Positions 3,301-55,354 of a DNA stretch of 64,000 bases are shown piece by piece (within the stretch, counting starts at the first letter, position 1; each line of letters starts with the position of its first letter). The DNA comes from Diprion similis (taxonomy: Eukaryota > Arthropoda > Insecta > Hymenoptera > Diprionidae). Location of the stretch: contig NC_060114.1 in NCBI RefSeq assembly GCF_021155765.1, positions 7,006,001-7,070,000 of the forward strand, read 5' to 3'. The notes below the pieces were generated by a model, which made no database searches, had not been told where the DNA came from, and was given only the letters and a program-made list of their open reading frames with translations. A program made the position numbers and the translations under genes.

Positions 3301-5306
3301 TGTTCTGGTTTCTTTGTGCGGTATCTTGTTTCGTTTAATTCTGTAATATTCATTCTAATTATTCAGGACAATTTTCCACAGTTTTTGCAATGCTGGGTAT
3401 GTTGTCGCCCGCGAGCAGAGGAGCCCTTGGCACCTGCGCGATATTCCTTTACGTGTTCTCCGGGCTTGTCGCCGGCTACTTTTCGGCACGTCTCTACAAA
3501 ACGATGCGAGGCAGAGAGTGGAAGAAAGCTGCATTACTGGTGGGCGATTCCCTTCCTCGGGTGTTTCAATATCCGTTAAAATTTTTCATGATCGTCATCT
3601 GTGCGATGAATAATTTTTAAATTCTACTTTTCAGACCGCAACGCTTTATCCTGGAATAGTTTTCACCACTTGTTTCTTCCTGAATTTCTTCATTTGGGGA
3701 AAGAAGAGTTCGGGCGCTGTTCCTTTCACCACTATGTTGTCTCTGCTTTGCCTCTGGTTTGGCATATCTCTGCCACTCGTTTACCTCGGTTACTTTTTCG
3801 GATATAGAAAACAACCCTTCGCTCATCCCGTTAGGACGAATCAGATTCCTAGACAGGTTCCCGATCAACTGTGGTACATGAATCCAATTCTGTGGTTGGT
3901 ATTCGTTTTTTTTTTTTTTTTTTTATCTTTTTCTAATGAAGTTTTTGCCTTTTTGCAATTCTTAAAAGGAAGAAGGGCGTTATTTTTTTTTTTCGCCATT
4001 CGATGAGGAAGTCTTTGAAAGAGATAATAATAAAAGAATAATTTTTTTCTATCGAGCATTCGATGAATACCTTTTCATTTCAATGAATTTTCTCCGCGAA
4101 AATCACAATTATGCGTATATATTAGCGTGTTTCGGGAAAAAATAATTTACGAATTTCCATGAAAATTATGCGAAACAAACTGAAAATTCGAATGAATGCC
4201 ATCTTAAATGTACAGCGCTCAATTTTTGAGAGAATCTTTTTTTAAACCTAAACAAACTTTTCGAAGGGTACCGCGGTGGAAAATTGAAATTATTTTTTCC
4301 TAAAAGACCCTGGTGTACATGGATTGCAAAAAGAAACTAGTGTAGTTGGTCAAAACCTAATCAGTGCTTCTTTCCTCTTCACTTTTCAGTACGCTGATGG
4401 CCGGGATTCTGCCGTTTGGAGCGGTTTTCATCGAGCTGTTTTTCATCTTGACAGCACTGTGGGAAAACCAGTTTTACTACCTATTCGGTTTTCTTTTTCT
4501 CGTCTTTTGCATACTCGTCATATCCTGCTCGCAAATATCCATTGTAATGGTCTATTTCCAGCTTTGCGGAGAAGTAAGTAAATCGATTTATTATGTTCGA
4601 AAAAAAAAAAAAAAAAAAAAATGGAAACAATATCGACAAGTTTTTAATCAGTATAACAACATAACAAAAGTTGAAGAACCAAGAAGTCCATTAAGTTAGC
4701 ACACAAACTTTCAAAATATATATTTTTTTTTTTTCTAGTTTCTGAATTACTATTTCTATGCTTCATTCGCGATTTTTTTTGTTCAACTCCTTCAACCGAA
4801 ATTTGTGGTGCTACTAACTTTTAAAAAAGTAAGCAGCACCACAGTGTTAAATGAAGAACTGGTGCCGATAGAAAAAAAAGCAATATCACATTTTTTGTTT
4901 TTTATTTGCTCAATTAACCCGACGAGCCTAATTTTTTTGCTCAACCCCTGACTACACTTCTCCGTCTCGTATCTAAATACTTGGAACAAAGAGTAAACCC
5001 GTCAAGTAAATAACGAAAAATCGGAAATGAAAAATGATTGTTTCAATGATTTTTATTTATTTTCAGGACTACAGATGGTGGTGGAGAAGTTTTATAGTGA
5101 GTGGCGGATCGGCCATCTATGTATTGGCTTACTCGATATTCTACTTTGTGACAAAGTTGGAAATAACCGAATTAGTGCCAACGTTGATGTACTTCAGTTA
5201 CACAGGTCTGATGGTACTGACATTCTGGCTTTTGACCGGAACCATCGGATTCTTCGCGGCTTACGCGTTTATCGGGAAAATTTACGCTGCCGTGAAGATA
5301 GACTAG
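383..5306 (+). CDS. TM9SF4: Transmembrane 9 superfamily member 4 (nonaspanin)
   Basis: Polytopic membrane protein of the nonaspanin family; family members work in Golgi and endosomes in membrane-protein sorting, cell adhesion and phagocytosis. Exons: 383-385, 940-1184, 1566-1712, 1827-1982, 2146-2423, 2858-3076, 3382-3539, 3635-3894, 4390-4573, 5067-5306, giving 629 aa (human protein about 640). The first coding exon is the ATG alone followed by GTGAGT; joining it to 940 yields a hydrophobic signal peptide ending ADA, then the mature N-terminus FYVPGVAP. The ATG at 951 is out of frame. The lumenal domain covers about residues 24-270 ([25 protein letters not shown]). The rest is the nine-helix region with [39 protein letters not shown] and DYRWWWRSF. 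It ends in KID, matching the KXD/E COPI-binding retention signal of the family. The donor after exon 8 is the least certain: GTTGGT at 3895 was chosen because it fits phase and family length; GTGGTT at 3892 is a weaker alternative. Confidence 0.96.
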
Positions 5307-6859: not shown

Positions 6860-9800
6860 CTAATCAACCTTCAGCAGACGACGATAAATGAAACGTCTTC
6901 TAACTTTGAGTGCGACGTAAAGAAATACTAGGATAAAACCGGTTATATATATTTTTATGACCGTGGTCTCGAGAGGCATGTAACACTTTGATACCATGTA
7001 ATTGTTCGGCGTGAATACACCCTGAAAAAAGACAACGAAAAATATGGTTTGATATTTGTTCTTTTCTTTTTTATACCTCGGTACGATTGGAAAACATTTT
7101 ACTGCATCATTGGAGCTTTGCATTTATTATTTATATACTTACGAGTAAAAATGACGGATTGTTTTTGTTGCGCCAACTGAAAGACGGAACGGTGAATTCG
7201 AGGATATTTTTACGGTGAATTTTCCTGCAGCCATGATGCGTGTGTCCATCGACTATAAGTCTCGGTTCCATTATGTCCAAAAGCTGTGAAAGAGAAAATT
7301 AATCAGATCGGTTTAGATCCATTAAATCATCAAGCGTGAAACCTGACGTATTAATTGTTCTCCGACTAAATATCAGCAGTTTTTGCTTTCGATGTTTTTA
7401 CTATCATCACTTTGAGAAAGTTGCTTGGTTAAAAATTGGTACATTTTTGTTAATTTTGACACTAAATATAATTAATTGTTAAATACTCAACATACGATAA
7501 GTTTTTATATAATTTTTAACATCGTATGGATATTTGACCAAAACAACCTTCTTGAAGTTCAATCACTCAAAACTGGTGACTTTTTTTCGTTATCTGTGTT
7601 TCGTGAGTGAGCTTTGATGCTCAAAAATAATATTGTGTCTCTGACGAACTTGCTCGGACGCTTCTTTCGACAGGCAATCCCAACGTTCTCGGAATTTCTC
7701 GTTTTTTATATTGGCCGGAGCTTCGTCAACCTCGTGGCAAATTTCATCAGATTCACGGTACATCGGATAGTGCTGAAAATAGATTCAATGTATAGATTAT
7801 TCATTCGCTCCTTTGAGTATGAAACTTCAAAAAGCATTTGGCTCTCAAAAAGTAACTAGAAAATTTTCTTCTCGTTCTAATAAATAAAAAAATATTATTT
7901 TTCCAGACGAAGCAAATTAAAAGGAAAAAAACATAACGAATCAGTATACGCCCTCTGCTGAAAAATTGCAAAACCTTTGGTTAAAGGCAGTTATTAATAA
8001 TTTTGCCCTTTCTCTCAATTTTGAAGTGAAAAAAAAAAAAAAAAAAGAAAAAGAAAGAGAAACCAAAAATCCGATTGTGATCGAGGTTTTGTAAATCTCA
8101 CTTGCAAAAGTATCGGCCTGCTGTACTGTTTCAGAATGTCTTTACTTTTGCAGCTACTTCCGATACCTTTCGTACATTTCAACTGCTCTGAAAGTGAAAA
8201 TGAAAATGGATGAGTTTCAAATTTTTTTTATCACAATCTTAACTGCAAGGCAAGTCAAAACTTGCGGTTTATGAAACAAATCAATCAGACTTACTGGCAA
8301 TTCTCTTCAGCGCCATTTCTGTAGGCTTGCAAAGGAAGCATCCGTCTCCTTCCAACGCCATGCTGTTCATTAGAACGAAATGATTTCCCCTCACACTAAC
8401 TCGCTCAACACTGGGCGCCTTCATCGCGTTAACGAACCTTTCATTTAAGTAAGGGATGATTTCTATGTTATAAAATTTTTACAATATTAGTTTTATATAG
8501 ACTCGATCACGTAGTTTCAAATGTCTTTGAGACTACTGTAAATTTTTTTAGCTTCTTTTTTGAATAAACTGTAAAAACGTTCTTTGCAAACGCATATTAT
8601 AGCTATATTGGAACTTGTAAGACGATAAGAGAAGAAAATAAATTATACTCCAACTTTGAGGAGGTCCGTTGCCCAAAAATCGACCCATTTTGTCAATTTT
8701 ATTACAAGACGGCATTATGTAACAATATTAATGAAAAGTGGGTAGCAATTTTTGGATAATCAACCTCCACAAGAAATAAATATTTAAACAGGCAAACTGA
8801 ATCAGAAAAAAATTGAAAAATGCAATCAAATCGAAGCCACGACACGACTGATAGCTCCAATACTGTGTCACTTAAATTCAACCTACGGTAATGAAAGCCC
8901 ATGTCGTGGTTTCCAGCAACGACATATAGCTGTGTATTTTGCGGAACGTAGAACAGGGAATTGAATCTAGCGACGTAACGTTCGAATTCGGCACGGCTGC
9001 ACCAAAGTCCCTCGTCAAATATGTCCCCTGAAATTTATTTCCTATTTTTATCAGTCTTTCTTGCATTCTATGTATGAAATTAAAATTTCTTGCCGATTTA
9101 CAAACCTAGTATGAAGACCAATTCCGGCTTGTGAATAGTCATCGCTGTCTGAAATGCTCTGTGCATTTGCCATTCTCTATAAAGAAAGAAAGAAAAAGGA
9201 TTATATATCACTGACGATAGAATACAAATCAACGGTATCAGGAAGCGATTATGACAAAGCGAACTCCAAACGATGCAAATCATCATATATCAATGCACAA
9301 ATCACAAGACTATTCGAAATTATTTATTCGAATGAACATTAAAATGTTTGGCTGCTAATTCTGGCTGCTAACTTCAGCCTCGTCAATATGAATCAGTAAT
9401 GAACGTAAGAAAAATGTGAAACATGAACAAAGAAACAAACACACTCGCACCGCAGATGAAAGCCCAAACAAATGTATACAAAAATGATGTAATAATAAAC
9501 TAAACTGAAGGAATTATAGATTTTTTTCTCAGACTAGATTCTTTTGCCAGACTGATGCAAGGAGTTAGCCACTCGGAAAAAAGTGAGACAGTGATTGCAT
9601 ACTACAGAGTCTATTAATATTTTTTATGCTTCTAAAAAATTTCCCCATTTTTAATGTGAAAATTTGAGTAAATATGCCTACAGAAAAGTTTCATGTAATC
9701 ATTAGTGATTTAGTTTTTATAAGTTAAGTAATGTATACCAAAGTATAGTGCATACACTTTTCGAAAAGCAAGACGTGAAGATTAATAGCGTTGTTGATAG

Positions 9801-13845: not shown

Positions 13846-16800
13846 CTAAGCTCTGGGATTTTCTTCCGGATCGAAAGCGAGATTAACAACGCCTTGATGC
13901 GTCTCTGAAACGCGCATGATGATTGAGGCTTGGCTGCCTCTCCTACTCATTTTGGGCTGCATGCTTAATGAAGTCCTTGCCACGCCGTAATTACTGCTCG
14001 CTGCTCCTCCTGGCATCGCCTGCATTTGGGATTTTCTCTTCTCGGCCAAAATACTATGGCGTCTAGCTTCGAACGCCTTGAAAGCTACAGTTGATCTTCG
14101 CGAAGACATGCGCCTTGAAAAGTCTGGAGAGCCAATGAAAGAATGAGTTTATAATTTCGTACCCTTCATCAATTTCATCTCATTACTTCCTTCTCACGAG
14201 GAGTAAAACCTACCTGGACCCTCGGCTATGCTAAAGAATCTTTCTCTAAATGCATTGTCAAGATTTTTATTCGTCTGCGTTTGTCTTCTATTCTTTTGGA
14301 GGTTGCGAACAGTCGTGCGTCTTGCAGGCTGTTTATGAGTGTCTTCTCCATTCGTTTCATCAACGCTATCGAGTCGTTGAAGATCTTTCACTATCTGAAC
14401 CGCGTCTTTGCTCAACAATGCTTGTTCCGATACGTCTTCCGGCTGTTGAGGGGAAGAACGCAAACAGGATAATGTACTTGCAATTTTTAAGTCAGTTATG
14501 ATCGGGCTAACGTCTCTGTTCAAACATGTGAATTTTCCCTCACCTTCTTGCAGCAGTACCAATCCAGCGTTGTGGTTGCCACGATATGCGCGAACGTGCC
14601 GAATCGATGGAACAGCATTGCTATGAATTGTATGACCAGTACCAGAGCGAACGAGAATACAAACACTAGACCGATTGGTTCGAGCTGAAGGTACTCCGAG
14701 GTCAAGTTCACCTGAATGGTAGGAAACAGACTGGATTCATATCCGTATCGTTATCCAAATACAAATTTGGAAAGAGTGAATGACCATCCACTCACCTCCA
14801 AGGCGGTTTCATCGTAGGTAATATTCGTTTGGATACCCCAGGGCCACTCGATGTGTAAATCGTCTTTGTTGAGCTGCATCAAGAACACGACCATGACGAA
14901 AAGGGCATTCAGCATGAAAAATGCGAAGAAACTTTTGTCGCGAAGCTCTTTCAGGTCACCAGCAATTCGTGTCTATAGATTCGATCAGATCGGTATTAGG
15001 GCAAGAGTCATAAGACATGAAATGTACTTGGAACAAATCTCTGTTCTTCTACCTTCTCTGCCTTGTCTTCGTCGATCGGGAAGAGGTACTTCTCGAGTAT
15101 GTCCTTCCAGAATTGTTCCTCTTGTGGTGAAAGGAAATCGACCTCCCCCTTCTTAAGATCTTCATCCTCCAGCCAATAAGGACTCACCAAAAATGTACGC
15201 TCTCGATCGCCCTCAGTGTTCTGGCTCACCGTGCTATCCGTGTCGCTCTCCATTTGGTCTTTGTTCGTCAGATTCTCCTCAGCCAGGTTGGTGGCTTCAC
15301 CACCAGGCCGGGTGAACGAGACTCGCCTTTGTCTCGGACCTTGAGGATCTATGGCTCTATTGGAGACAGATTTGAATTATTCCTTCTCGAAGGACACTAA
15401 GATGTATTTTAAATTCATTTGTGACAATCAGCTCTCACTTCGATATGTTCTCCAACTTCTTCTCCATCTGGCTTAGGGATGTCGCAATTGCGTTTAGCTG
15501 TTGCTTTTCGTCGGACGGGTTGTTGTGGGTGCATAATATGCATTTGAACAATCCAGCCAGCGATATCTCTATTGAACCGTTATCGTCACTGTTGTTTCCT
15601 TTGCCGTCTTGCAAGAACCCGAAGAGCGACTTTTGCTTGCTCTTTCGTGCAGCCTCCTCAGCTTCCTTTTTATCTTCCTCTAATTCCTAAGAGTAGTTGA
15701 AAAAATGTGATGACATTGTCGTTACAATATCTAACACCATTCGGGGATATCCAAGCTAATCAGGTCTTCTAGGAATACTGGGAAACTAGTAGTTTGAACG
15801 ATTTTTCAGTTCATGATTGAGCATACGAATTTACTATTACATGAACTATAACGTCATATGATGATGTATAATTACCGCAGCCGTCTTTTTGACTTGCACT
15901 TCTCTGGTACCCCAGGCGACGTTGTTAAGGTTTGTGATGGAGTATATAACCAGTAGCATATACATGGCAGGTATTGTTACGTAGTAGATTATTCCACATG
16001 GAAGACACATCAATTCTTGGGGATGCATGAGTCCTGCTATGACCAGTTGGCCGGTGATCAGGAATAGAAAGAGAGAGCTGGGAGCAACCCAACCATCGTC
16101 TGCCATTTGTATTATAATAGCCACTATCACGGCCATCATAACAATGCCGTATCCCATGCTGATTACCGCGGCTACGAAAAGCTACCGGAGAGTGTTATTA
16201 GTACCTACGCGTGATAAACGCATAATGGAACTGTAAAGAGATTACATACACACAAACACACACACACACACATCTATATCATCACCATAAACACTAAGAC
16301 GGATAATAATGATGAACCCCAGTTTTGTGCGAGACACTGACCATAACAGACGTGTACGTGTCTCTTATTTGAACCTACATATCCCAAGAACTTAGTATCA
16401 ATATAGTAAAGAACTGCTTACTTGTGTATTGGATTTACAAGTTAGGCAGACAATCATGAATATCACAACCGGCACGAGGTTGTAATGAAAACTCGGCCAG
16501 TTCCCAATTCCGAAAGCGGCGCTACAGGCGCCAACCAGCATGAGAAATATTGTTCCCGGTCCGAGGATCGTTCCAACTGTTGATTAAACAGTGATTTTTA
16601 AGTTCAAACAAACTTCTTGAAATAGTTAAAGCTACCGACTCACCCATAAGGAAGGTCTGATACCACATATAAACAGTCGATATGTTATCATTGTTTTTTA
16701 TGGTCCGTTTTGAATCTCCAATCAGATCCATTATGTTAGCCATTGTCGAGGGAACCCAACGACGTCTTTGGTTGAAAAATTCGTTGAACCCTTCGGGTGC

Positions 16801-19800
16801 GTGAGTGTAGGCGTCACTAGCAGCCGAGTACTCAACCTAAAAACCATTTCCAATAATGAAAATGTGATGAAAGAGAGCGAGGCATAACTCTTTTCGTTCA
16901 GCTATTAGTCTGTTCTTCATATTTTTCCAAAGAAATCAGAACTCGTCAAGCTTACCCTGTAACCCCGCTGCAACAGCAGAGTGCATAGCCATCGATCCTC
17001 GCCCTGATCGTACTGAACGTAGTGCCGGGCTTCGTTGGAGACGGTCGTGTATTTGCTCATCACTCTATCGTCCATCAACGCCTTGCCTCTGAAAAGTGAA
17101 AAGCATCCAGGGCTGCAAAGCACGCAACCGATCGTGTGCTCGGTCGCCTTTTGTAGCCAATGCCCGATCGCGTATTCGAACATTTGGTACCATACCATGA
17201 AACCTGGAATAGTGATGGTATCACTAGCTGTACTGTGCGAAGTTTACGCTTTCGTGCTTACCAGATCCTACCGGATGGATGCGGCCACACGCGGCACCGA
17301 GGTTTTTATTTTTCTTCATTAAGTCGATCAGGAGCTTGACGGCGGCTGGTTGAAAGTCAATGTCGCCGTCAAGCGCGAGGAGGAATGTATGTTCGGCGAT
17401 AATTTCCTTCCGTTCAATGCTTATTGGCAGTTGCATTAGCCGGTGACCGAGAAGATAGTACATGTACATGACCTGAAAGCAATACAGTGCAGGAAATTTT
17501 AATTACTCAGTTCGCCGTTCTGGGTCTAGCTTCATCTCACCTGGCTCCATCGTTTCCTGTGCCGAATTTTGCTCTTGTCCTTAAGATGAGCAATCATCTT
17601 TGTCTTTCCTGGAAGTGTCCATACCAAACGTCCTCCATAGGGTGTCGGGTACTTCTTTGGTGCACTGACGTGCATCGTCGTTTGATGAACGTTCGAAGCT
17701 GCCTCATCCAGCGTGTTCACGAGAAGTTTTACGAACCGATTCACCTGCGATTCGTTTTCATCATGATCTGACATCTCGAACGCGTCGTCAAAGAATATGT
17801 GAGCTGAGGACGTAGTCATTAGATTTGGAGTAGTGCAATGTGTCATATATTGCAATAAAATCGATTGACCACTTACTTTCCAGCTCATAGTAATCGGGAT
17901 CAATAATCTTGAGGAAGTTCTGTGCGTTCTTTCTTGCGCACTGATCCTCATCCAGTCGCAGAATGCTTTTCAAGAACTCTATCATTTCCTCCTTGTTCTC
18001 GTGCCACATCGTGGCGCACACGTGAATTCTGGTCACCAGATCGCTATTCCTGCTGGCTGTGTGAGCAAACCCCAACCCTTCGTTCTGTTCGTATAAGCTC
18101 TCATAGTCTTCGTCGTGCTTCACGAAACCCTGCAAAGCATTGAACATTTTGTATAAGTGATGAAGTTTTCAATACCTAACAGAAAATACTATTGCACCTC
18201 ATCGGTCATGTCCGGCTGATCATCTCGCTGTCTGTTGAGTGCCAACGATTGGTCGACCATCATTCCATCGTACAGGGGCAGCACAAAAAGCTTCTCGGTT
18301 ACCGCAAGACGTTCACACTTTGGAGTCCATATGTGGATGGTGATCCACGTCTGCGAAAGCAGCCACAGTATCCATACCCAAGCGTACTCACTCCAAATGA
18401 AATCGCTCAATGTGTATAAAGACGGTGACTGGTAGAAGAGATAGTCAGGAATGAAACCGTGAAAAGTGCAAGGGTCTTCGTTTCGCAGAATGCACGCGGC
18501 TAACAGGAGCGAAATCGAGACAGGGACAGTGAGGTTAATGGGCAAGGCGTAGCCAAATCCCTGCATCAATATCTTGCAGGCGAGTTTACCTGAAAAATTA
18601 ACAATTCACTATTAACATTCGAATGGAAAGTCACTTTCGATGTTTAAACTTACCAAAAATGTAGGCAAAGTATGCTGCCAATACTTGTATCAGCATCACG
18701 TAAACCGGAGTGAGAGAGTCCGTTGTTACAATCGCCGTTACCCCATCGGGAAGAACCTCTGATAGGTCAGGGATCGTCCCTCCGCCAATCGTCGACTGAA
18801 TCTCGGAAACTGTGACATTGTGCTGGCTGAAAGTGATTCCGAACATGGTAAACAAGTTGCTGATCGTGGTACCCTTCATGTGTAGAATTGACAAAGTGGT
18901 CAGGAAGAAAGCGGCTATCTTCCAAATTGACACCATGAGGTAGGTTACGGGACGCGTGAGCTTTAGCTCCTCCTTTATTTGACCCAAGTATCTTATGATT
19001 CCTGTCGTCGTGAAAAATTCAAGGATTATCACATGCTACCGCTTAGATGTTTCGTTAGACTCACCCAAGGGACTCTGAATTGAAACGTAGTTTTCCCACC
19101 AACGGCAAGATACTAGCACTAGAGCAACGGGGGTTAGCCACATGGCTGGGTTCGAGATGTAGACGAATGGCCATACCACAAATCCCGTGACCTGCATTGC
19201 GAGGGCAGCAACATCCACGATGAATAGGAGAAACAGTATCGGCTTATCGCGTTTCTTGTAGCGGGAAAGAAGCCCTACGAATTAGCCATTTTTTACATCA
19301 TTCCTCATACTGGTTAAAAGACTTTTTAGTTCAGTTTTCACTCACCCAGCAGTCCTGGAACGAAGCACAGGCAATTTGTCAGCATTGCTCCCTGAATTAC
19401 ATCGAGGTCAGGTAATACGCTTACAATCAAAATGGCCAGCCCAATGACATGGGCGGTTTCTGTGATCCCTACAATCACGAAATGGGCCACTTTTGGTTTT
19501 TCGTACGACTTGAAACAGAGAATTCTTAAACTTCGGAAAAGTGTCAAGATTTCGGGGAACGAAAACGAGAATATTATGCACCATATCCAAGCTATCTTTT
19601 CTTCCTCTGGTAACGTGGCTGCGAAGGTTTTTGTCGTTCCTGAAAACAACGCGATCATTCATAACCGCCCAGTAAATTATTTTAGTGGGTTTTCATACCT
19701 AGCTGCTGTAGTACATTGCAGTAGTAAATAGTCCTGTCGTCCCGCAGTTGAGAAGTCATGAACAGTATTGTTCCCTTGGCAATGACGCTACAGCTCAAGA

Positions 19801-20154
19801 CCATAGCAAAAACAAAGAGATAGGCCACGATTTTTGATATCTTTATCGCCAGCTGCAAGCACTTCTGTTCGGACATCGAACCAGAGTCCTCCTTTAACGG
19901 TGGGTTCCGAAATAAGTCCCATTCTTTAGCTTCCGTGACTGTTTTTGAGCTGTGTGTATTCACGAACGAAGACATAAAGAAACGAGCGTTTATGACACGT
20001 TGTAGCTTTACTTACGAATTCATATTTCGTCTGGTGGTTCTCACCTTGCAGCGAATTGCTCCTGGACTGCTAGTGGGGTACTTTCATCATCTGAGAAATC
20101 GACCGGACCAACGGTTCCGACCCCAGGGACAAATCCGTTAGGATTTTTGGCCAT
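13846..20154 (-). CDS. Chitin synthase, tandem copy A
   Basis: Processive family 2 glycosyltransferase polymerising UDP-GlcNAc into chitin at the plasma membrane. Exons: 20154-20045, 19949-19699, 19639-19346, 19274-19065, 19001-18654, 18589-18198, 18129-17877, 17803-17541, 17472-17262, 17203-16956, 16836-16644, 16576-16422, 16181-15876, 15686-15439, 15356-15053, 14972-14796, 14711-14544, 14442-14214, 14123-13846; all phases agree, 1545 aa. Order: acidic cytosolic N-terminus (FSDDESTPL), clustered membrane helices (about 50-500), catalytic domain (CATMWHE 573-579, LDGDIDF with DGD 742-744, EDR 846-848, QRRRW 883-887), helix cluster with WGTREV (1066-1071), a charged heptad-like segment (KKEAEEAARKSKQK), two more helices, then a basic Ser/Arg-rich tail. 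The residue before WGTREV is Ala, where Ser is usual. The chosen ATG is the first in its exon; untranslated exons may lie upstream. CHS-A (kkv) versus CHS-B class is unresolved. Confidence 0.95.
16242..16272. repeat. (CA)n microsatellite in intron 12 of chitin synthase A
   Basis: A CA-rich run fills part of the short intron between the exons at 16576-16422 and 16181-15876. It leaves no room for a second copy of the following membrane-spanning exon. Confidence 0.9.
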
Positions 20155-22859
20155 CTCGCACTTTTGCTATAAACGAAATACAGTCCCTTCTTGCCTCACT
20201 AGGTTTTGGTAACGGAAAATTTACATGTTGGTATCGATTACGCATAATTCGAGCTCATTATCTTCAGATACCAGATGGTGGGAAGCTCCTTGCGATTTGA
20301 CGAGGCCGATATTTATGCTATTTGACATTTATCTTACCTTGGCATGGACGTTCTCTAACCGAGCAATATCTGTTAACATTATACCTACTTATTGTTGGCG
20401 GCCTCTAGTCAGAAAGATACGGCTACGCGATACCGTTTATCTAAAATTCTGTCATATCTTTATCAAACCGATCATTCCAAAACCTGTGCACCATTATTGT
20501 GTTGCCAGATGTTTATCGAGGGAATTTAATTGAACAATAAATAATATCGAGACAAATGAGCTTATATTGCAGGTCATAAAAAATTATAAAAAGTATTGCT
20601 GAAGTATCAAGTTTGAAAGTTGCAACGAATCTTTATACCCCGCGCTCGGTTAGTCTCGGTTAGCTCTAGTCCTTCAGATTGGTGCCAGAGTTTCAGGAGT
20701 TCGTAAGCATTATACGGTCCAAGCGATCATATATTCTCAAAGAATGCTGTATGTGATACCTGACATGTCAAAAGAATTTTGGTAATTATTTTTCATACAT
20801 GGCTGTACTTTTTCATGAGTTTTGGGATTAGAGTTCGACATCTGGATTTTGATGGGTGAGAAATTATCTTATTAATAATAAAGGAAGGTTTTTTGAACGC
20901 GAGATGCTGATTCTTTCGTCGTAACTTCCCAACCAAACAATGCAACGTTCAAATTCACAACGCAATATTAACAATTGCCTTCTGTTGTCTGGATATGAAA
21001 CCGGTAATGATTTTCGGCGTTCTTTTTTATCACTGGTATCACCTTCTCTGAAATGATACCGATCATCGTTGGCTAAGTAATTGAAACGTAATCAAGTCTA
21101 TACGTATAAACAAACACATTTTTATAGTGTATATGTGTTTATGAATAAGTCTGATTATAGGGGGTTATTTCTAGAAGCCATATCAGTGGACTGGTCTTAG
21201 GTTTAGATCCCTAATTGCTGATTGCCAATTAACTGTCAGTAATGTTAAAACTACATCAGTGGCCATGATTATTGTTGTTATTGCTAAATTCATTAAACCA
21301 CATCCTTCATAAAGTGACGTATAATCAAGAAAGTAAAAATTACGTTCATTCGATCATTTCATAAATCGCGGCTTATACGTTTTCTTGGCTGTACTAACTC
21401 AGCCGCTCCATATGTTGGCTTTCAAAGAATCATCTATCTCAATCGAGTGTCAAATTATCCACTTTGTAACTGACTGTCGATTACCGGCCAATATCGACAA
21501 TATCCAACTGTTCAATTATACTTCCGCACTAATAAATCGCTGTCTACTTCATAATCATCAAAACGACACATAGTTCACTAGTACAGAATCATTCATGCGA
21601 TATGAATACATCCACGACGGGTGGAACCTAAAATTTGAATCATTCCTTGGCTCTCAGAGGTATATTAAGGTTTGCTGATGAGAAATTATATATGGTCTCA
21701 GAACTGCGCATTTGTGGTTGGAAGTTTTAATAGACCAGCAATGCAAACGCGATATTGGTATACATATTACTTGTCAGCTTTAGAGATTTGAAGCCACATT
21801 AAAATCTTCTAAATCAGTAGAACAGTTTTTGTATCATCCGCTGTTTGGGCTATTTTGACCAGGTTTGCCGACACGTGGCGCAGTGCGATTCCAGTTTCAA
21901 GTTCTGTGTTATAGATTTGGATGGATCAGCGTGATTTGTAATTCAACTTACTGTTCGGTGCCAGTTAGCAATTAGTATTAGCCGCAGCCTACGTAATTGC
22001 AGAAATTTGCAACATGGACGCCTGAATGAACGGCTGATATTAAACTGAACACACGCGCCGTGTTCCTGTGAGTTGTGGGATCAAAGAGCAGCCAAAATGT
22101 CGATTATGTGTATCCGTTAAGCATTTTACGGACTGCGTCCCTCGCCGTAACTTTAAACCACTTCCAAAAAAAAATCAACACTACTTAAAAACTAGATTAT
22201 GGAATTTATTGCAAGTGTGTAAAACGCGTGTCGACTGAATACTGAGTCGACATTAACGAGAGAGACCCAACGCGGCAGAGTTTCTCATACTTTGAGGAAG
22301 GTTGCTTTCGGAATCTGATACTGACGATGACGTCATTCAAAAGATTTGTTATTGTATCAGAAAAAAGTAAAATAGAACAGAGTGGGGAAGCGAACCGAAC
22401 GAGCTTTCATGTATTAGTGATACTTACCTTGCAACGTTTTAATCACCGATCGTAATAGACATTGATAAACCTACTCTCGTGGCAACCGTATCATCGATAT
22501 ATCTCGATTTCGAATTTATATTTTACACTGTCTTCAACATAAGTTTGCAACATCGATAGAGCTCTCGAAGTCGAGTCATACTCGATTCCCTGGTGGGGGT
22601 TTTACAGATAAAAGCAGCAAAGCGACTCTTGGTCACGAAACAACAGTGATTATCTTTTGATTCTATGTAAAAATTTATTTAACATTTCAAAATATTTAAA
22701 AATAGAATGTAAATTTGTACAAAAAGTAGCCTAGAGAGACAATTATTTTTATTATATGGTTGAATATCGAAGTTCGGAAGAAAGAGCGAAATAGAGTGAG
22801 AGAAAACAAATTCCATTTTACTGATATCGCCACCGGAAAATGAAGTTCACTCGCGCACT
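20155..22859. other. Spacer between the two chitin synthase genes (upstream of copy A)
   Basis: This should contain the promoter and any untranslated first exon of copy A. No coding exon, TATA box or array of sites can be assigned with confidence. An acceptor-like TTATAG lies just before the copy A start codon, so a spliced leader is possible. Confidence 0.5.
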
Positions 22860-23659
22860 AACTTAAGGTTCTTATAAAGACCCGTTTGTACATACACCTC
22901 GAAAATGCGGGGATGCAAAACTCCTATACCGCTCAACCGATCAGAGTGAAACTTGGTCAATTAATGCCTTATTTTGGTAAAGAGTGGAGCGACTTTTTAC
23001 GTTTTTACAATTTGGAAAAAAATTTTACAGATTGGTTACCACCCACAGAAATCGGCCAAATTTTCACAGTTGCACTGAATGGATCGAACTATCCGGTGTG
23101 ATGCCACTCGGCGGTGATAAAACACACATTTTGAGCCCAGTCCCATGAGATTTGATAGTAAAGTGACGAAATGGCAGCTGATCTGGTTTTCGATTACGAA
23201 GAACACCGAAATCTCATTTTGGTGACATTTGTCGGTAATTTCTTACCGACATTACACGCATACATTACCGACATGCGCGTAATGTCGGTAACAAGTGTCG
23301 CCAAAATGAGATTTCAGTGTACTTCGTAAGCGAGAACCAGATCAGCTGCCATTTCGTCATTTCACCATCAAGTCTCATGGGACTGTGCTCAAAATGTGTG
23401 TTTTATCACCGCCGAGTGGCATCATACCGGATAGTTCAATCCATTCAGTGCAACTGCGAAAACTTTGCCAATTTCTATGGGTGGTAACCAATCTGTAAAT
23501 TTTTTTTTCAAAATTTGAAAAAGTAAAAAGACGCTCCACTTTTCGCCAAAATAAGGCATTAACTGCCCAAGTTTCACTCTGATCGCTTGAGCGGTATAGG
23601 AGTTTTGCATCCCCGCGTTTTCGAGGTGTACAACGGGTCTTTATAAGCACCTTAAGGTT
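22860..23659. mobile_element. 800-bp foldback (inverted-repeat) element between the chitin synthases
   Basis: Two arms of nearly 400 bp are inverted copies that almost touch at about 23262-23271. The left arm begins AACTTAAGGTTCTTATAAAG; the right arm read on the minus strand begins AACCTTAAGGTGCTTATAAAG with the final G at 23640. The centre carries repeated TTACCGACAT/ATGTCGGTAA motifs. Matching pseudo-reading frames occur in each arm (22886-23101 on +; 23422-23610 on -), showing how alike the arms are. No transposase is present, so it is a non-autonomous foldback or MITE-like element. RNA across it would form one long hairpin. Confidence 0.9.
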
Positions 23660-23743
23660 CCGCGCCAGATTTCAGTAGATTAAATTTCACTGCACTGCAC
23701 AATAGTAACAAGTTTCTGGGATTCACTATAGAGAATGAACACT

Positions 23744-24364
23744 TTATACTCTAGGAGAATCTTCACGCTCAAATCCGAGGTTGATGACGCCCGGATTTCT
23801 GTCGAATTCTTCGTCGTCCGAATTATCAGGATGACTTACTGGCCTAAGACGCATACTAGTGGGTTTCCCGAACATTCCGTATATACTGCTCCCCCCTGCT
23901 TGGGTTTGCAATTTCGACTGCTTCCTTTCAGCCAAAATTGTGTTTCGTCGAATCTCGAATGCTTTTACAGCTTGAATCGACCTTCGTGTTGCCATTTCGG
24001 TGGGCAATCCTGTTAGACAGATTAGAAAGTTTTTAGCCGTAAGCAATTTGTAAAGTTTCTCGAAATCTAATAACGGTAGGACCTTACTCAAGTCTTCTGC
24101 TATACTGAAGAATCTCTGCCTGAAAGCGTCGTCCAGGTTGTTCATCACCCGCGTCTTTCGTTTACCTTTTTCTAAATTATGGACCGTCTTCCTTCGGCCA
24201 GGCTCTTTACTGGTTATTTCCTCGTATTCACGATCCATTACGTCCAATCTTTGAAGGTCTTTAACTATCTCAACTGCATCGTTGATCTGCAACGTCTCAA
24301 TCGAAGCATTCTCTGCCTGTTGAATGAAATTTAATAAGATAAATTTTGCTGTCTCATATTCGTG

Positions 24365-24395
<31 letters not shown>

Positions 24396-27300
24396 GAATT
24401 GCACTTACTTACCTTCTTGCAACAATACCAGTCCAGTGTTGTACTTGCTAGTATGTGGGCTAATGTTCCAAACCGATGGAAGAACATAGCTATAAACTGG
24501 ATTACCATAACCAGTGCGAACGAGCAGACAAACATAATACCGATTGGTTCGAGTTGTAGGGATTCTGTGCTTATGTGAACCTGTAAGAGGAAATAAGAAA
24601 ACCACAGGCGTACATGATTTATCATCCAGAAATTAAACTTCGTCAAAGTTTGATGGTGTCACCTCAAGAGAATTCTCGTCGTAGGTGATGTTTGTCTTAG
24701 CACCGAACGGCCACTTGATGTGCAAGCTCTCCTTGTTCAGTTGCATTAAAAATATGATCAGCACGAACAGTGCGTTTAACATGAAAAATGCAAAGACGCA
24801 CTTGTTTCGAAGTTCCTTCAGATCAGCAGCGATACGTTCCTGCAATAAAGAAAATCCACGCTTACAGAATTTTTTCATTTTCACCCGGCCGTCAAAGCAA
24901 AGGAACCCCGAAGTGCGCTCACCTTCTCTGCTCGGTCTTCATCAATTGGGAAAAGATACTCGTCGAGTATCTCCTTCCAGAACTGTTCCTCCTGAGTTGA
25001 AAGGAAGTCGACTTCTCCCTTCTGAAGACTTTCGTCCTCCAGCCAGTAAGGACTCACCAGAAAGGTGCGTTCGCGGTGGACTTCCGGATCCTGGCTCATC
25101 GTATCTGACTCACTGTCCAGTTGATCGGTCTCGATTGAATTTTCCTCGATTGGATCCATCATATCTGCGTAGGCCATTGTAAACTTCCGTCCTGGTGGAT
25201 GTGGTTGAGGTTCAACGGCCCTATCGTTAGACGAATTGTTATTTCGAATTAAAAAGGTTTCGAAATTTATTCTTTGATGCCTAATTACCTCTCTATCTTC
25301 TTCAACTGCATCTGAAGTTTCTCCAAAGACTCTGCGATTGTGATTAGCTCCTGTTTCTCGTCAAATGGTTTGTTGTGCGTGCAAAGCATACATCTGAATA
25401 AACCAGCGCATGAGAAGTCTATAGAACCCTGGTCATTCTTGTTGATGCTCTTGCCTTCTCGGAGGACGTCAAGAAGCGGTTTGTTTTCATGCTGCCACGC
25501 AGTTTTCTCAGCCTCTTTTTTCTCTTCGTTCCATTCCTGTTGTGAAAATCGACGGATAAATGATTCGACACGATTTTTTCATCATTTGTAAAACATTACG
25601 TGATTCAGTAATGTATTTACTTACCCCAATAGTCTTCTTTACTTGCACTTCTCTAGTTCCCCAAGTAACGTTGTTCAGGTTTGTGATAGAATATATCACC
25701 AGCAGCAGGTACATCGAAGGTATTGTTACGTAGTAAATTATTCCGCAGGGTAGACAGAGCAGTTCTTGGGGATGCATGAGCCCTGCTATAACCAGCTGCC
25801 CGACTATCAGGAAGAGAAAAAGAGAGCTGGGCGCGGCCCAACCATCGTCTGCTATTTGTATTAGAACTCCAACGATCACAGCCATCATTACGAGTCCGTA
25901 TCCGATGCTGATTAATCCGGCTATTAAAAGCTGCAAAGATAATTTATTAAACACTATTCATTACCGTTGAAGGTTGAAAAAAAAATTTCAGTTTTGTGCA
26001 CAAAAAGGAAATCAAGGATCGGTGTATCGAAGTTTGTTGTTCTCTGAATGAATAGGGAATTGCAGTAGCGAAGCTAGTCACTAACTCATCGTTCAATGAA
26101 CAGTCATATTGATTAAGACGTAGTAGTCTGAAAAAGCAGTCGATCGTGTCACGATTATGAGAAAGAAAAGCAAACGAAAGGTAGATACGAACCTGAGCCT
26201 AATTCTATGCAAAACAACCGCAATATTCTAAAGCTACTTTATTACCGTACATATCTTTAGATTGTGAAACGATTTTCTCATACTTACTTGCACCTGAGAT
26301 TTGCAAGTGAAACAGACGATCATAAATATCACAATCGGGATTAAGTTCCAAAAGAAACTTGTCCAGTTATCGATCTGGAATGCAGCAACACAGGCTCCAA
26401 CCAACATTAGGAAGATTGTACCCGGTCCAAGGATTGTACCAACTGTGAATTCCAAAAGCATTGCGTTAATTATCTGGTCACCTATACATAGCTCTTATCA
26501 CACTAATTATCGTGTTCATGAAAATTAATTTAAGCACGTAGGCAGCTTACCCATGAGCAGGATTTGGTACGACATATACATCAGCGATATGTTGTCATTA
26601 TTCTTGATGGTACGCTTAGAGTTCATAATCAGATCCATGATGTTGGCCATTGTCGAGGGAACCCAACGGCGTCTTTGATTGTAAAACTCGTTGAATCCTT
26701 CGGGTGCATGGGTATAAGCGTCACTGGCAGCTGAATACTCAACCTAAAAATGACGTCAATAACACAAAATAAAATTTTTTTTTGCTGTCCTGATTTTTTC
26801 TGTGAATCTTTGTGTTTGAAAATATAAAAATTACGAATATAATTATGATTGTATTAGATTGGCTGTAGTTTTGATGTTATTGTAGTTTTGTATTTCAGAA
26901 AACTCAATATTTATTGGCGAACATTTCTTATTCAGTTAGAGTTAGGAAAATTCTATCTCATGAATTTGCATTTATGTAGTTTATAATTCAAGCCGTTTAC
27001 GAGAGAAAGATAATTAAAACATTTTCTGATTTTTGCTACGTATTATTTTAATGAAAAACCGAAAAAATCAATTTTAAAGCTCATATTTGGCTGAGATATT
27101 CTATTTGAGATACTTTACCGAATTTTTTTTTGCACACCCCAATAGCCTCGCTTTTGACTGAACTCGTGGTGCCCGATTTTTCATAGAGAGAACAACAAGA
27201 CATTATATTTTCTATATTTTTTTTGCTCTTGTCTGAATAAAGTGAATATAACTAGAGCTATTGATAGTATTTTTTTGATAAACTTTAGATATAAAAAAAA

Positions 27301-30300
27301 AAAAAAAAAATCAAATTTATCATCTAAATACGAGGGATTTAATCACTCTTGAGATCTGGTGTACACTTTTCTGGTAATTTTGTGAAATCTCTTGAAATAT
27401 TTGAAATTATCGAAATCTTACGAAATCTTTCGAAACCCCTAAAATCTTGTGAAGTCTTCTGAAATCTTTTGAAATCCCTGGTATATTTTGAAATCCTTGT
27501 AATCTTGAAATCAGATGTACATCAAGTCGATGCGTGATTAACCCCCCGTCTAAATATTGCTTTCTTGAGTCATGCATGAAAATGTCGATAAAATAAATAA
27601 CTACAGCCAATTTCTAAAAACTAGGCTTACTCATAGGGTCGTTGACATCAAATCCTTCTGAGACCACTCAAATACAGTGCAGAGGCTCAATAGGGCGCTA
27701 CGGGACAAGGAAAGAAGCGATTTTTCATAAATCGGATGGACTCTACCCTTCACCACCAAGCGTGCAAACATTGCATTTGATGCGCAGCTTTATTGAGAGT
27801 TGTGCCTGAGATAATAGCTTGGGTCCTATCCAGAGCGGCTCTAGTGAGATCGTGCACTGTTTCAAAAGCAATATAACCACTGTTGACCAGTGTAATGAAG
27901 ATGCGATGAAAAAGAGCCAGACATTACCGTTTCCATTCAGCGAGTGTATTTTTTTCGTTTCTGAAAGTGAAAGTTCAGGTCTCATCACACTTACCCTGTA
28001 GCCACGCTGCAGCAGCAGAGTGCATAACCATCGATCCTCACCCTGATCGTACTGGACGTAGTGACGTGCCTCGGTTGACCTGGTCGTATATTTGCTCATC
28101 ACTCTATCGTCCATAAGTGCCTTTCCTCTGAAAAGCGAAAAGCACCCTGGACTGCAGAGCACACAGCCGATCGTGTGCTCGGTCGCCTTTTGTAGCCAAT
28201 GCCCGATCGCGTATTCGAACATCTGGTACCATACCATTGGACCTACAATGGTTTAGGTGTCAACTCGCCATGCTGCCATAGAATTTACGTAGAGTAGAAT
28301 CTTGACTGTCCGAATTTCAATCATACGATCCCTCAATTATCCGAATCATGACATGATTTATCCGAACGCTCAATTATCCAAATCATGACATGATTTATCC
28401 GAACGCTCAATTATCCCAATGTCAGGTGAATAAATACATATTGGCGCGAAGTAGCGTTCTTCATCTTCCAACGTTAGTTTGTTTGTGCATACATACTTTG
28501 TTTCTACCAAAAGTCTTTATCTGTTACTTGTAGCGCACACAGAGTTGACTGTTGTATATATACATACATTACTATCTCTTAAGAGGAAGTTCCAGTCAAT
28601 TTTAACAAAAAATGAATACATCTCTGAAACGATGGCACGCAACAGATTGTTCCTTTGGGATTCGATGATTTACGAGTCTTAGGAACTAACGAAGACGTGA
28701 AAATATCGGAATCTGGAAAAAACGGATGAAACAGGTTTTATAGAATTTACGAGTCTCGGAGGCTGGCATGACAGTTTTACCAAGGGATCTTGCATATTTG
28801 CTTCACGCGCACTCTGTCGATCGATTGTCGAAAACTGTCATTTACATGGTTTCATATACAGCTCTGGAAATGAAGCCGCGTGTCTCTGTTGAACATAAAA
28901 TCGGGCCGTCACTGCCCGAATCGCGCCAGCAATGTGCAGGCTTGGAGAATAGTCAAAATAAATGACAAGTGCAATCAAAAAAAGGAATTTTTTCTAGATC
29001 TCAATGGTTTTCATGACTTCGTTAGATCCTATTGCTTATAAATCATCGAACCCTAAAGAAACAATCCACTAGGTAGCATCCTTTTGGATATATATTAATT
29101 TTTCGTCAAAATCGACTGGAACTTCCTTTTAAGATAAAAACTGAAGTTCGATTATCCGAGCTTTTTAACATCCGAATTAGGTTCGGTCTCAATTAATTCA
29201 GATAATCGAGATCCTACTGTATTTCGAAATTACCTGACCCCACAGGATGAATGCGACCACACGCCGCGCCCAGGTTCTTGTTTCTCTTCATCAAATCAAT
29301 CAGAAGCTTAACGGCGTTGGGTTGAAAGTCAATGTCGCCATCGAGGGTGAGGAGGTATGTGTTTTCAGCAATTATCTCCTTCCGATCGACGCTTATTGGC
29401 ATCTGCATTAATCGGTGTCCGAGGAGATAATACATGTACATCACCTAGAAAGTACAGACATTACTGAAGCTGTACTTTTTTTTTGCTTATGCTATACGAT
29501 GTCAGCATCAAACATCTGGCCCACTCTCACCTGGCTCCAACGTTTTCTATGCCGAATCTTGCTCTTGTCCTTCAAATGGGCGATCATCGTCGTCTTACCC
29601 GGTAGCGTCCAGACCAAACGACCGCCATAAGGCGTCGGATATTTTTTCGGCGCACTAACGTGAACTCGGGTTTGATGGACGTCAGAAGCGGCTTCGTCTA
29701 GCACGTTCACAAGCAATCTCACAAATCGGTTCACCTGCGAGTCGTTGATGTCGTGATCGGACACCTCAAAGGCGTCGTCGAAGAAAATGTGAGCTGAGGA
29801 GATGGGGTTCAGGAGAGATTTGTATCATTAGTGAAAAGTTGATACCTGACATCTTTTGAATTATTGTTTACGCTAAGTTGTTCTCTAGTGATTAATTATT
29901 TGTTTACACTTCTTCAAAATTCACTACATGCGGTCGAAACTTACTCTCCAATTCGTAGTAGTCGGGATCAACCACGTTCAGAAAATTTTGGGCGTTTCTT
30001 CTGGCGCATTGATCCTCGTCCAATCGAAGTATGCTCTTCAGAAAATCGATCATCTCGTCCTTATTCTCGTGCCACATTGTAGCGCAGACGTAAACCCTCG
30101 TTACCAGATCACTGGTGTAGGTAATGGTCGTGCCCAGAGCGGAATCATTGGTTTGTTCGTACGGAGTGTAATCAGAGTCGCTGTCATCCTGTTTTTTTCT
30201 CTTTGTTTTGGTTTTACTCGCCGCATTCTATGGGCATGAAATCATGTTTGATCGGTACTTTTAGTCAAAAAACGTTGTGCTCACCTTGGCCGAAATTTCT

Positions 30301-32252
30301 GGCTGGTCGTCACGCCGCCTGTTCAGTGCCATTGCTTGATCGACGAGAAGTGTATCGTACATTGGCGTAACGAAGAGCTTCTCAGTTGAGGCAAGACGTT
30401 CACATTTTGGTGTCCAAATTTGGATCGTTACCCAAGTATGGGACAGTAGCCACAAGACCCAGACCCAGGCGTGCTCTTCCAATATAAAATCGGTGAGGAA
30501 GTTGAAGGTTGGAGAGTCGAAAAAGAGGTGATCGGGAAGCGTGCCGTGGAAAAAACAGGGATTTCGATTTCGAAGACTGCAGGCTGCGGTGAGAAGGGAA
30601 ATTGACGTTGGGATTGTCAGGCTGATCGGTAACGCGAAGCTGAACTCCTGTATCATTATCTTACACGCGAATTTACCTAAAAAAGAAGAAACGAACGATG
30701 TGACGAAGCTAAGTCGAAATTTGGAAACCAGCTTAAAATCGCGTTTCTCCAACTCACCAAATATGTAGATGAAATATGCTGCAAGCATTTGCATCAGTAA
30801 TACGTATATCGGGGTTGAGAACGTCGTTGTGATAACCACCGATATTCCGTTTGGGACAACTTCAGACAGTTCCGGAATCGTTCCGCCGCCAATGGTTAAC
30901 TGGACCTCAGTGACGGTGATGTTGTGGTTGCTGAAGGTATTCCCGGCCATGGTGAAAATGTGACTTACTGTGTTTCCCTTGAAGTGCAGAATCAGTATGG
31001 AGAATGCGAAAAACGCAACGATTTTCCATACGGAGACGAAGATGTAAGTGAAGTACCTCGTGTACTTCAATTCCTCCTCAATTCGACCCAGCGAGCTTAT
31101 TATCTCTGTGGTTTAATGCCAATTCACCCATCGATCATCGGATTATTATGTTTAGCAGTTGGATTTCGCAATTTTAATTAATTACTCACCCACGGGACTG
31201 TGGATGGTGACGTAATTCCCCCACCATCGACAGGACACGAGAATAAGCGAGACTGGAGTCAGCCACAAGCTTGGATTCGAGGTCTTCTGGATCGGCCAAG
31301 CTATGAAGGAAGTCACCTGTGCAGCCAAGGCAACGACGTCGGCTAGGATATACGGAAGCTTCCTTACCCCGTCAACCTTTTCATTCCTCGAAAGAAGCCC
31401 TGCGATTGAAATCAAATTTCGGATTTTGTTATGCGGTTTGGTTTTTGCCAATTTTCGATTATAACGTACCGAGTAACGCTGGCACAAAACATACACAATT
31501 CATCAGCATTGCTCCCTGGATGACGTCTAGGTCGGGCAAAATGCTCATGAATAGTAACGCAAGTCCAATCACGTGTAGCGTCTCCATTGAAAACACGAAG
31601 ATGAAGTGAGCGGCTTTGGGCTTCCTCGACGATTTAAAGACGCAGATTCTCACGCTCCGGATCAGCGTACCAATTTCGGGCACCGCAAACCCGATCAGTA
31701 TGCACCATATCCACGACACCCTTTCCTCTTCCGGTAGCACCGCAACGAAAGTTTTTTCCGTCCCTAGTGGCAGATCAAAACATTGGAGACTCTTTCGTCA
31801 CGCTTGGTAGTCTACCGGATCGTTGCAAATTACCTAGAAGCCGGTTGCAGTACGAAACCGTCCGGTTAACCCGGAGCTGAGAGGTCATGAGGAGAGCCGT
31901 TCCCTTCGCGATCACGCCGCAGCTCAAGACTATCGCGAACACGATGGTATAGACCAATAGTTTGAGGATCTTCAGCGTGACTTCGATGCACTTCTGATCT
32001 GCCATCGAACCGGAGTCTCTCCTTAACGGCGGGTTGCGGAACACGTCCCATGCCTTGGTGTCTCCTGATGACCTTTGGACAGTCGTTGGAAATGGAATCG
32101 TTCACGCGATGCCGAATATGGGTAATGGTCACTCACCTTTCACCGTATTCGTCCTGCACCGTCAAGGGCGAACTTTCGTCGTCGAAAAAATCGTCCATGT
32201 CGGTTGCTTCCGCACCTTCTCCTGGGATGCTGGGGTTTTGATTCTTCAACAT
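23744..32252 (-). CDS. Chitin synthase, tandem copy B
   Basis: Second chitin synthase, same reaction as copy A. Exons: 32252-32137, 32072-31834, 31763-31470, 31399-31190, 31105-30758, 30676-30285, 30227-29945, 29793-29531, 29444-29234, 28242-27995, 26743-26551, 26442-26288, 25930-25625, 25536-25289, 25220-24923, 24839-24663, 24580-24413, 24316-24088, 24009-23744; all phases agree, 1547 aa. Acidic N-terminus FFDDESSPL, CATMWHE (581-587), LDGDIDF (DGD 750-752), EDR (854-856), QRRRW (891-895) and WGTREV (1074-1079, preceded by Thr) are intact, so it should be active. It has a Lys-rich acidic linker (TKTKRKKQDDSDSD) before the catalytic domain. The junction of exons 1 and 2 is the least certain: 32137/32072 was chosen for its GTGAGT donor; a donor at TACG|GTGAAA paired with TCATCAG also keeps frame. 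In-frame sequence extends upstream of the ATG to an acceptor-like CTCAG, so a further 5' exon is possible. The last intron is open (see 24010-24087). Confidence 0.94.
24010..24087 (-). other. Stop-free 78-bp last intron of chitin synthase B
   Basis: The intron between exons 18 and 19 has a good donor (GTAAGG) and a CTAACAG acceptor, is 26 codons long and contains no stop in the reading frame. Retention would insert 26 residues (Leu/Lys-rich, containing LDFEKLYKLL) into the C-terminal tail and give a 1573-aa protein. The equivalent 90-bp intron of copy A has in-frame stops. Confidence 0.75.
24365..24392. repeat. (CT)n microsatellite in intron 17 of chitin synthase B
   Basis: Uninterrupted CT dinucleotides inside the intron that separates the last membrane-helix exon from the C-terminal tail exon. 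Confidence 0.95.
27382..27513. repeat. Degenerate GAAATCTT-type tandem repeat in intron 10 of chitin synthase B
   Basis: About a dozen imperfect units of roughly 10 bases resembling GAAATCTTTT occur in a row. They lie in the 1.25-kb intron 10 (26744-27994), which holds nothing else that I recognise. Confidence 0.7.
28292..29219. mobile_element. TIR element in intron 9 of chitin synthase B, pogo/Tigger-like
   Basis: The left end GAGTAGAATCTTGACTGTCC and the right end, read in reverse complement, CAGTAGGATCTCGATTATCT are imperfect inverted repeats ending in GAAT. Both ends abut a TA dinucleotide, as in the Tc1/mariner/pogo superfamily. An internal inverted pair (about 28577-28606 and 29105-29136, sharing GGAAGTTCCAGTC) and a direct repeat of a 37-base unit containing ATTATCC (28333-28415) are present. 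No transposase frame survives, so it is non-autonomous or decayed. It makes intron 9 (28243-29233) almost entirely transposon. Confidence 0.75.
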
Positions 32253-47782: not shown

Positions 47783-48090
47783 ATTTATGTGACATGCCCG
47801 TAAACTGCCTGTTTTTTTGGCAAGGATAAAGATCGGTTTACGGGTATGCCACATAGAATATTTTTTACGGTATGGGCATTGAAAAGCAAAACGAAGAGTG
47901 AGGTTATGTCGCGATCTGTTAGACGAAGCTACTTTATTCGGCAGTTTGGGATGCGCACTTCGAACTGCGCATCAAAACTGTGCGGAGTAAAGACTTTATT
48001 CCGCAACTTTCTTCGCTGTCGTATAAAGTGTCACTTTACGGAACGAAAACTGCCACATAAAGTGGACTTTTCAATGCCCATGCCGTAGAA
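47783..48090 (+). mobile_element. Composite hairpin and TIR element, copy 1
   Basis: Two hairpin modules lie side by side. The first pairs GACATGCCCGTAAACTG with CGGTTTACGGGTATGCC around 47790-47855. The second has TIRs TTTACGGTATGGGCATTGAA and, in reverse complement, TCTACGGCATGGGCATTGAA, covering about 47863-48090. Copy 2 at 54975-55354 has the same order, so the composite moves or spread as a unit. Confidence 0.85.
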
Positions 48091-54974: not shown

Positions 54975-55354
54975 TATTTATGTGACATGTCCGTAAACTG
55001 CCTGTTTTTTTGGCAAGGATAAAGATCTCAAGACGAGCTGAAGGCGAGCCGGAAGCGAGCTGGAAGCGAGTACTGAAATTATCTGAGCCAAAAAACGGTT
55101 TACGGACATGCCACATACAATATTTTTAACGGTATGGACTTTGAAAAGCAAAACGAAGATTGAGGTTATGTCACGATCTCTTCGACGAAGCTACTTTATT
55201 CGGCAGTTTGGGATGCGCACTTCGAACTGCGCATCAAAACTGCGGAATAAAGACTTTATTCCGCAACTTTGTTCGCTGCCGTATAAAGCGTCACTTTACG
55301 GAACGAAAACTGCCACAAAAAGTGGACTTTTCAATGCCCATGCCGTAAAAAGTA
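54975..55354 (+). mobile_element. Composite hairpin and TIR element, copy 2
   Basis: Same two-module order as 47783-48090. The first hairpin pairs GACATGTCCGTAAACTGCC with GGTTTACGGACATGCC but has a longer loop with a GAGCTG/GAGCCGGAAGCGA tandem insert. The second module keeps both TIRs around GGGATGCGCACTTCGAACTG. It sits inside a GTGACTT-rich array. Confidence 0.85.

Follow-up and report, generated by a model that had tools for sequence, protein, structure and literature searches.

Two intact chitin synthase genes, g1 and g2, lie head-to-tail on the minus strand of a 64,000-nucleotide stretch of Diprion similis DNA (the window; contig C10, NC_060114.1, positions 7006001-7070000, from an assembly of 269 Mb in 60 contigs, 14 of them longer than 10 Mb), and the same chromosome carries a third chitin synthase gene, g3, with the hallmarks of the cuticle-type CHS-A. 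The tandem pair is a mosaic: exons 10-13 are closer to each other than to the third gene in protein and share an excess of identical silent sites, and the remaining exons follow a different pattern. We put at slightly better than even the chance that g1 and g2 arose by an old tandem duplication of a non-A (CHS-B) gene and were made more alike in part by gene conversion, with CHS-A residing elsewhere on the chromosome.

Three chitin synthase genes with a common exon frame

In transcription order, the window presents g2 (23744..32252, minus strand, 1547 amino acids), a 3.6-kb spacer and g1 (13846..20154, minus strand, 1545 amino acids), each with 19 coding exons (positions are those of the window unless C10 is named). 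Those of g1 lie, on the minus strand, at 20154-20045, 19949-19699, 19639-19346, 19274-19065, 19001-18654 and 18589-18198 (exons 1-6), 18129-17877, 17803-17541, 17472-17262, 17203-16956, 16836-16644, 16576-16422 and 16181-15876 (exons 7-13), and 15686-15439, 15356-15053, 14972-14796, 14711-14544, 14442-14214 and 14123-13846 (exons 14-19). Those of g2, on the same strand, lie at 32252-32137, 32072-31834, 31763-31470, 31399-31190, 31105-30758 and 30676-30285 (exons 1-6), 30227-29945, 29793-29531, 29444-29234, 28242-27995, 26743-26551, 26442-26288 and 25930-25625 (exons 7-13), and 25536-25289, 25220-24923, 24839-24663, 24580-24413, 24316-24088 and 24009-23744 (exons 14-19). Exon chains were sought from the lengths proposed in a first-pass annotation, requiring an ATG at the start and a stop codon at the end, AG/GT borders, consistent phase and uninterrupted frames. 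These lengths permitted two chains for g1 (differing at exon 17 only) and four for g2 (differing at exons 10 and 16 only), from which we kept the one aligning with the other copy; no chain was obtained for either gene when the exon lengths of the other were swapped in.

The 19 exons with corresponding boundaries that the annotation had proposed are borne out, both chains being open from start to stop and 18/18 introns agreeing in aligned position and phase in the pairwise alignment. Exon lengths are equal, as it had stated, in exons 3-6 (294, 210, 348 and 392 bp), 8-14 (263, 211, 248, 193, 155, 306 and 248 bp) and 16-18 (177, 168 and 229 bp), and differ between g1 and g2 in exons 1 (110/116), 2 (251/239), 7 (253/283), 15 (304/298) and 19 (278/266). 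Chitin synthases polymerise N-acetylglucosamine at a cytosolic site bearing the EDR and QRRRW motifs and pass the chain out through a bundle of transmembrane segments. The predicted proteins of g1 and g2, 67.5% identical over 1559 columns (blastp), both contain the Pfam domains Chitin_synth_2 and ChitinSynthase_IV_N above curated cut-offs, together with the EDR, QRRRW and WGTR motifs, and a plain hydropathy scan delineated 17 hydrophobic segments in g1, 16 in g2 and 15 in g3, several of them directly after the catalytic domain. Both copies have the look of working membrane enzymes.

A search of the host genome for a further chitin synthase turned up one, on the same chromosome and 2.1 Mb from the pair. 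The PF03142 profile matched at three places, namely g1, g2 and C10:9183840-9184064, and all 53 matches listed for the g2 protein (from 23 scored candidates) fall within the pair or C10 9179582-9187057; genome searches of this kind give minimum counts, and a further copy could be hidden in the short contigs, many of which read N where looked at. The gene found, g3 (C10:9187311-9179525, 1561 amino acids), was built one exon at a time with g2 as the template, in fixed phases and with a tolerance of up to 60 bases on exon length. Its exon 16 occurs in two versions (C10:9182016-9181840 and 9181655-9181479), each of 177 bp with splice sites; these versions, 16a and 16b, are alike at 42 of 59 residues. 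The WGTR motif reads SWGTR in g3, AWGTR in g1 and TWGTR in g2. Insect CHS1 has been described as having two alternative 177-bp exons of 59 residues and CHS2 as having none, with aphids lacking the second exon, and SWGTR is the motif of Sogatella CHS1 (PMC6355952). Because it combines two 177-bp versions of exon 16 with SWGTR, g3 is, by these hallmarks, the cuticle-type CHS-A with alternative exons 16a and 16b.

The location of this hallmark bears on the two options left by the first-pass annotation. That g1 and g2 are the ordinary CHS-A and CHS-B set in tandem has a precedent in Spodoptera, where such adjacency is on record (PMC11249258), but the gene carrying the CHS-A hallmark is g3, well away from the pair, and g1 and g2 both lack it, which makes an ordinary pair almost inconceivable. 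The other option, in which one class was duplicated and the remaining class lies at another locus, survives in outline, CHS-A being indeed elsewhere. The matched exon structure, in contrast, cannot be taken as a sign of recent duplication because g3 has it too: in a three-way alignment, 17/18 introns coincide in g1, g2 and g3 (intron 1 is off by 1-2 columns in a gapped stretch), and 12/19 exons do not differ in length among them. This architecture is an ancestral property of the family and is not peculiar to the tandem pair.

A mosaic of similarity in the tandem copies

Over whole proteins, the relations among the three genes are star-like, with identities of 68.6% for g1-g2, 69.5% for g1-g3 and 69.7% for g2-g3 (1524 columns). 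In the same order of comparison, identities are 62.5, 64.8 and 66.0% in exons 1-7, 89.2, 91.1 and 89.2% in exons 8-9, 86.7, 73.1 and 78.4% in exons 10-13, and 57.8, 65.9 and 62.1% in exons 14-19. The residues private to g3, g1 and g2 in exon 13 number 31, 4 and 0, respectively (Fisher p 3e-13 versus the rest of the protein), and the pair is only 52 and 56% identical to g3 in this exon. A separate peculiarity of g1 exon 10 (17203-16956) is an F in SG(P)MVWYQ where g2 and g3 have P, just ahead of the region in which the enzyme is most conserved.

Synonymous divergence (dS) between g1 and g2 reaches 3.7 over the whole coding sequence (NG86), and 165/437 four-fold sites are identical. Because this dS is saturated, the two genes are old copies, as judged from their sequences. 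The possibility that two haplotypes were set side by side in an assembly artefact is opposed by these saturated silent sites, by the level of protein identity and by the fact that both copies are open from start to stop; no point in its favour was found, and its probability is negligible.

Silent sites were examined region by region because a change of pace in protein evolution could yield the pattern seen in exons 10-13. Between g1 and g2, four-fold sites are identical at 59/113 in exons 10-13 versus 104/318 elsewhere (Fisher 0.0003), and synonymous third positions at 146/234 versus 311/715. Permutation scans of g1-g2 with windows of 80, 120, 160 and 200 sites gave p values of 0.0035, 0.001, 0.002 and 0/2000, the best windows of silent identity lying between g2 residues 784 and 1043, and the same scan applied to g1-g3 and g2-g3 gave a smallest p of 0.24. 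Exons 8-9, equally conserved in protein, are without this silent excess (19/61 four-fold sites identical).

The two copies are also alignable in non-coding sequence over the first 102 bp of intron 10 (16854..16955 in g1 and 27893..27994 in g2, both on the minus strand). The score of this alignment was matched by 0/2000 shuffles and 0/152 non-coding slices of the window, and among 54 intron comparisons between counterparts in g1, g2 and g3, intron 10 of g1-g2 alone beats all 200 shuffles. The intron measures 1251 bp in g2 and 119 bp in g1. The rest of it in g2 (26746..27890, unstranded) is largely a dispersed repeat, with 85 matches listed in the same genome (40/267 candidates scored), and appears to have been inserted later, when the intron was still about the length seen in g1.

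The mosaic is most simply explained by interlocus gene conversion between tandem neighbours over parts of exons 10-13. The putative tract comprises exons 10-13 with introns 10-12, at 15876..17203 in g1 and 25625..28242 in g2 (both minus strand), and takes in EDR and QRRRW at the end of the catalytic domain, the five-transmembrane block and WGTR. Published work regards this region as the one that synthesises the chain and hands it on. Several points count against such an exchange. Exons 10-13 were picked as the tract after the protein pattern had been seen, although the scans are independent of that choice; the four-fold-site scan run with no preset region gave p = 0.02; exon 15, outside the tract, has 12/19 four-fold sites identical between g1 and g2; and introns 9, 11, 12 and 13 of g1 and g2 gave no alignment, introns 11 and 12 lying inside the tract. 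Exchange could have been patchy, or old enough for these four introns to drift.

The missing intron alignments would also suit an account without any conversion, in which exons 10-13 evolved slowly in the pair for reasons of function and fast either in CHS-A or ahead of the split between g1 and g2; the location of the enzyme's most conserved part in exon 10 fits it as well. Protein selection, however, leaves a silent excess restricted to g1-g2 unexplained, as it does the lack of such an excess in exons 8-9 and the alignable intron 10. We regard this account as improbable.

Class and origin of the pair

Each tandem copy has a single exon 16 of 177 bp (14796..14972 in g1, the counterpart of the CHS-A alternative exon, and 24663..24839 in g2, both on the minus strand). 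A tblastn search of the window with all g1 and g2 exons plus 16a and 16b found no second exon 16, returning only the two known exons and weak chance matches. Of the 17 positions that distinguish 16a from 16b, g1 agrees with a, b and neither at 6, 3 and 8, and g2 at 7, 5 and 5. By this comparison, the single exon of the pair falls within neither version and so did not derive from one of them alone, as would be expected if the g2/g1 ancestor separated from CHS-A about the time when exon 16 was duplicated, or earlier. By elimination, the pair would then occupy the CHS-B (gut-type) position, and g1 and g2 are probably copies of a non-A (CHS-B) gene. Database searches brought up no animal chitin synthase for comparison: PDB returned 7 distinct sequences (best E 2.3e-10), which bear the names chitin synthase or hyaluronan synthase and are too distant to root the three paralogues, and none with a shorter query; IMG/VR and GTDB contigs, scanned twice each, yielded no relative; and a plasmid search gave 104 records below 60% identity, mostly nodC among the matches listed. 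Primer sequences printed in papers, inspected for CHS-B peptides, were of too little length to be informative.

The assignment to class B has difficulties of its own. It was made by elimination, and the CHS-B slot cannot be presumed to exist because CHS2 has been argued to stem from a duplication that only some holometabolous lineages underwent (PMC6444547); a table in PMC9631950 gives one CHS2 each for fly, mosquitoes, beetle, bee and wasp, and CHS2 is missing there in several insects. In the exons flanking 10-13, g1 and g2 resemble g3 at least as much as they resemble each other, so that a sister relation of the two is not borne out. After WGTR, the g1 stretch resembles g3 and g2 only partly departs from it, with a further heptad pattern in all three proteins. 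Drosophila CHS-B (Chs2) is described without the coiled coil found in Kkv (PMC12431666), where it sits just after WGTRE (PMC9894549), and a moth CHS-B is described with one coiled coil (PMC7370082).

Some of these observations would be expected if both window genes were CHS-A duplicates that had lost one alternative exon, a true CHS-B being absent from this insect. Their N- and C-terminal parts are as near g3 as each other, the stretch after WGTR in g1 is CHS-A-like, and an insect lacking CHS2 would not stand alone, to judge from PMC9631950 and PMC6444547. Such an origin sits poorly with an exon 16 nested in neither 16a nor 16b and with an exon 13 so far from that of CHS-A, and we consider it possible, though not likely. 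A mixed origin, in which one copy is CHS-B and the other an independent CHS-A offshoot that landed beside it, their common core arising by later conversion, draws on the greater closeness of g1 to g3 (65.9%) than to g2 (57.8%) after exon 13, and on the neighbouring CHS1 and CHS2 of Spodoptera frugiperda (PMC11249258). Yet a second exon 16 is present in neither copy, and more events would be required; this origin seems distinctly unlikely.

Under the reading that we prefer, that of old CHS-B copies touched by conversion, exchange would keep the end of the catalytic domain and the five-transmembrane block alike in the pair and unlike CHS-A, and the N-terminal membrane part and C-terminal tail of g1 and g2 would have diverged freely. 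The likeliest outcome would be a shared chemistry and channel in two enzymes that differ in regulation, partners or site of action. It is also conceivable, though we think it unlikely, that the pair belongs to neither CHS-A nor classical CHS-B but forms a third type of insect chitin synthase, with a converted core and ends free to specialise; if so, one insect would run three chitin synthases with two channel types.

Genomic surroundings and comparison with known chitin synthases

The pair is adjoined by exons of a TM9SF-type gene (EMP70, PF02990) at 874-5303 on the plus strand and by one or more metallophosphoesterase exons (PF00149) at 8705-9034 on the minus strand, the latter belonging to a gene that we take to be MPPE1. 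An SH3-domain exon of a neighbouring gene lies on the minus strand about 2.6 kb downstream of g3, and no neighbour genes common to g3 and the pair were seen in the stretches read. The g2-g1 spacer contains a foldback (palindromic) repeat (22862..23656, unstranded) with two arms of about 397 bp that are 86% self-complementary. It appears to belong to a high-copy foldback family, or one resembling miniature inverted-repeat transposable elements, and the family would be young because most of the copies scored at other places in the genome (40 of 993 first-look candidates) are 92-94% alike. Intron 9 of g2 holds another inverted repeat (28577-29134, arms of 147 bp, 77%), of low copy in the genome.

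Further along the window, tandem repeats occupy 61481-61619 (34 bp x 4.1 copies) and 62449-62733 (85 bp x 3.3 copies), and two open frames in gene-poor sequence (47804-48085 and 55087-55401) have closely similar translations and are probably copies of one repeat; neither Rfam nor ARAGORN gave any match there. Elsewhere in the assembly, the TTAGG telomere repeat is present at the tested ends of contigs C1, C2 and C3 and at the far end of C10. The profiles PF11671 and PF12278 matched nothing in the genome, but they matched nothing in the controls either, which makes their absence uninformative. Contig C32 holds part of a mitochondrial genome (82% A+T) in which nad2 lies near trnQ, trnW and trnC on the opposite strand and trnR-trnA and trnP-trnT are arranged otherwise than in the ancestral insect order.

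The usual description gives an insect one chitin synthase for the cuticle and one for the gut, and the cause of this tissue restriction is not understood. In Drosophila, Kkv and Chs2 are reported to be unable to replace each other, and chimeras fail (PMC12431666). A pair with a homogenised core and divergent ends, standing beside a CHS-A with a different core, would be a natural experiment on the determinants of location versus chemistry, and it is a further case bearing on the timing and number of the origins or duplications of CHS-B. No tandem non-A chitin synthase pair with conversion was recognised in searches of openly licensed PubMed Central (PMC) papers, subscription journals being outside the scope of the search.

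Among known systems, insect CHS-A (CHS1; Drosophila kkv) shares with g1 and g2 the domain layout, the EDR, QRRRW and WGTR motifs, the exon frame as seen in g3 of the same genome, and a 177-bp exon 16 with the same borders; g1 and g2 differ from it in their single exon 16, in having AWGTR (g1) and TWGTR (g2) for SWGTR, and in a strongly different exon 13. With insect CHS-B (CHS2), the pair has in common the lack of an alternative exon and its existence beside a CHS-A gene, whereas here there are two copies for one and the heptad pattern after the five-transmembrane block is kept. Tandem position alone is not new, because adjoining chitin synthase genes, SfCHS2 and SfCHS1, are on record in Spodoptera frugiperda, but the neighbours there are CHS-A and CHS-B (PMC11249258), whereas in D. 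similis CHS-A lies 2.1 Mb off and the neighbours lack its hallmark. In the mite Panonychus citri, finally, CHS1 resembles g2 in its TWGTR motif and has a single exon 16 (PMC3975363). These two traits had pointed to a mite as the host, a reading rejected on the strength of 103 matches in the genome to PF02949, the odorant receptor family of insects (none in 14 control genomes); the host here, unlike the mite, is a winged insect, and it has three chitin synthase genes.

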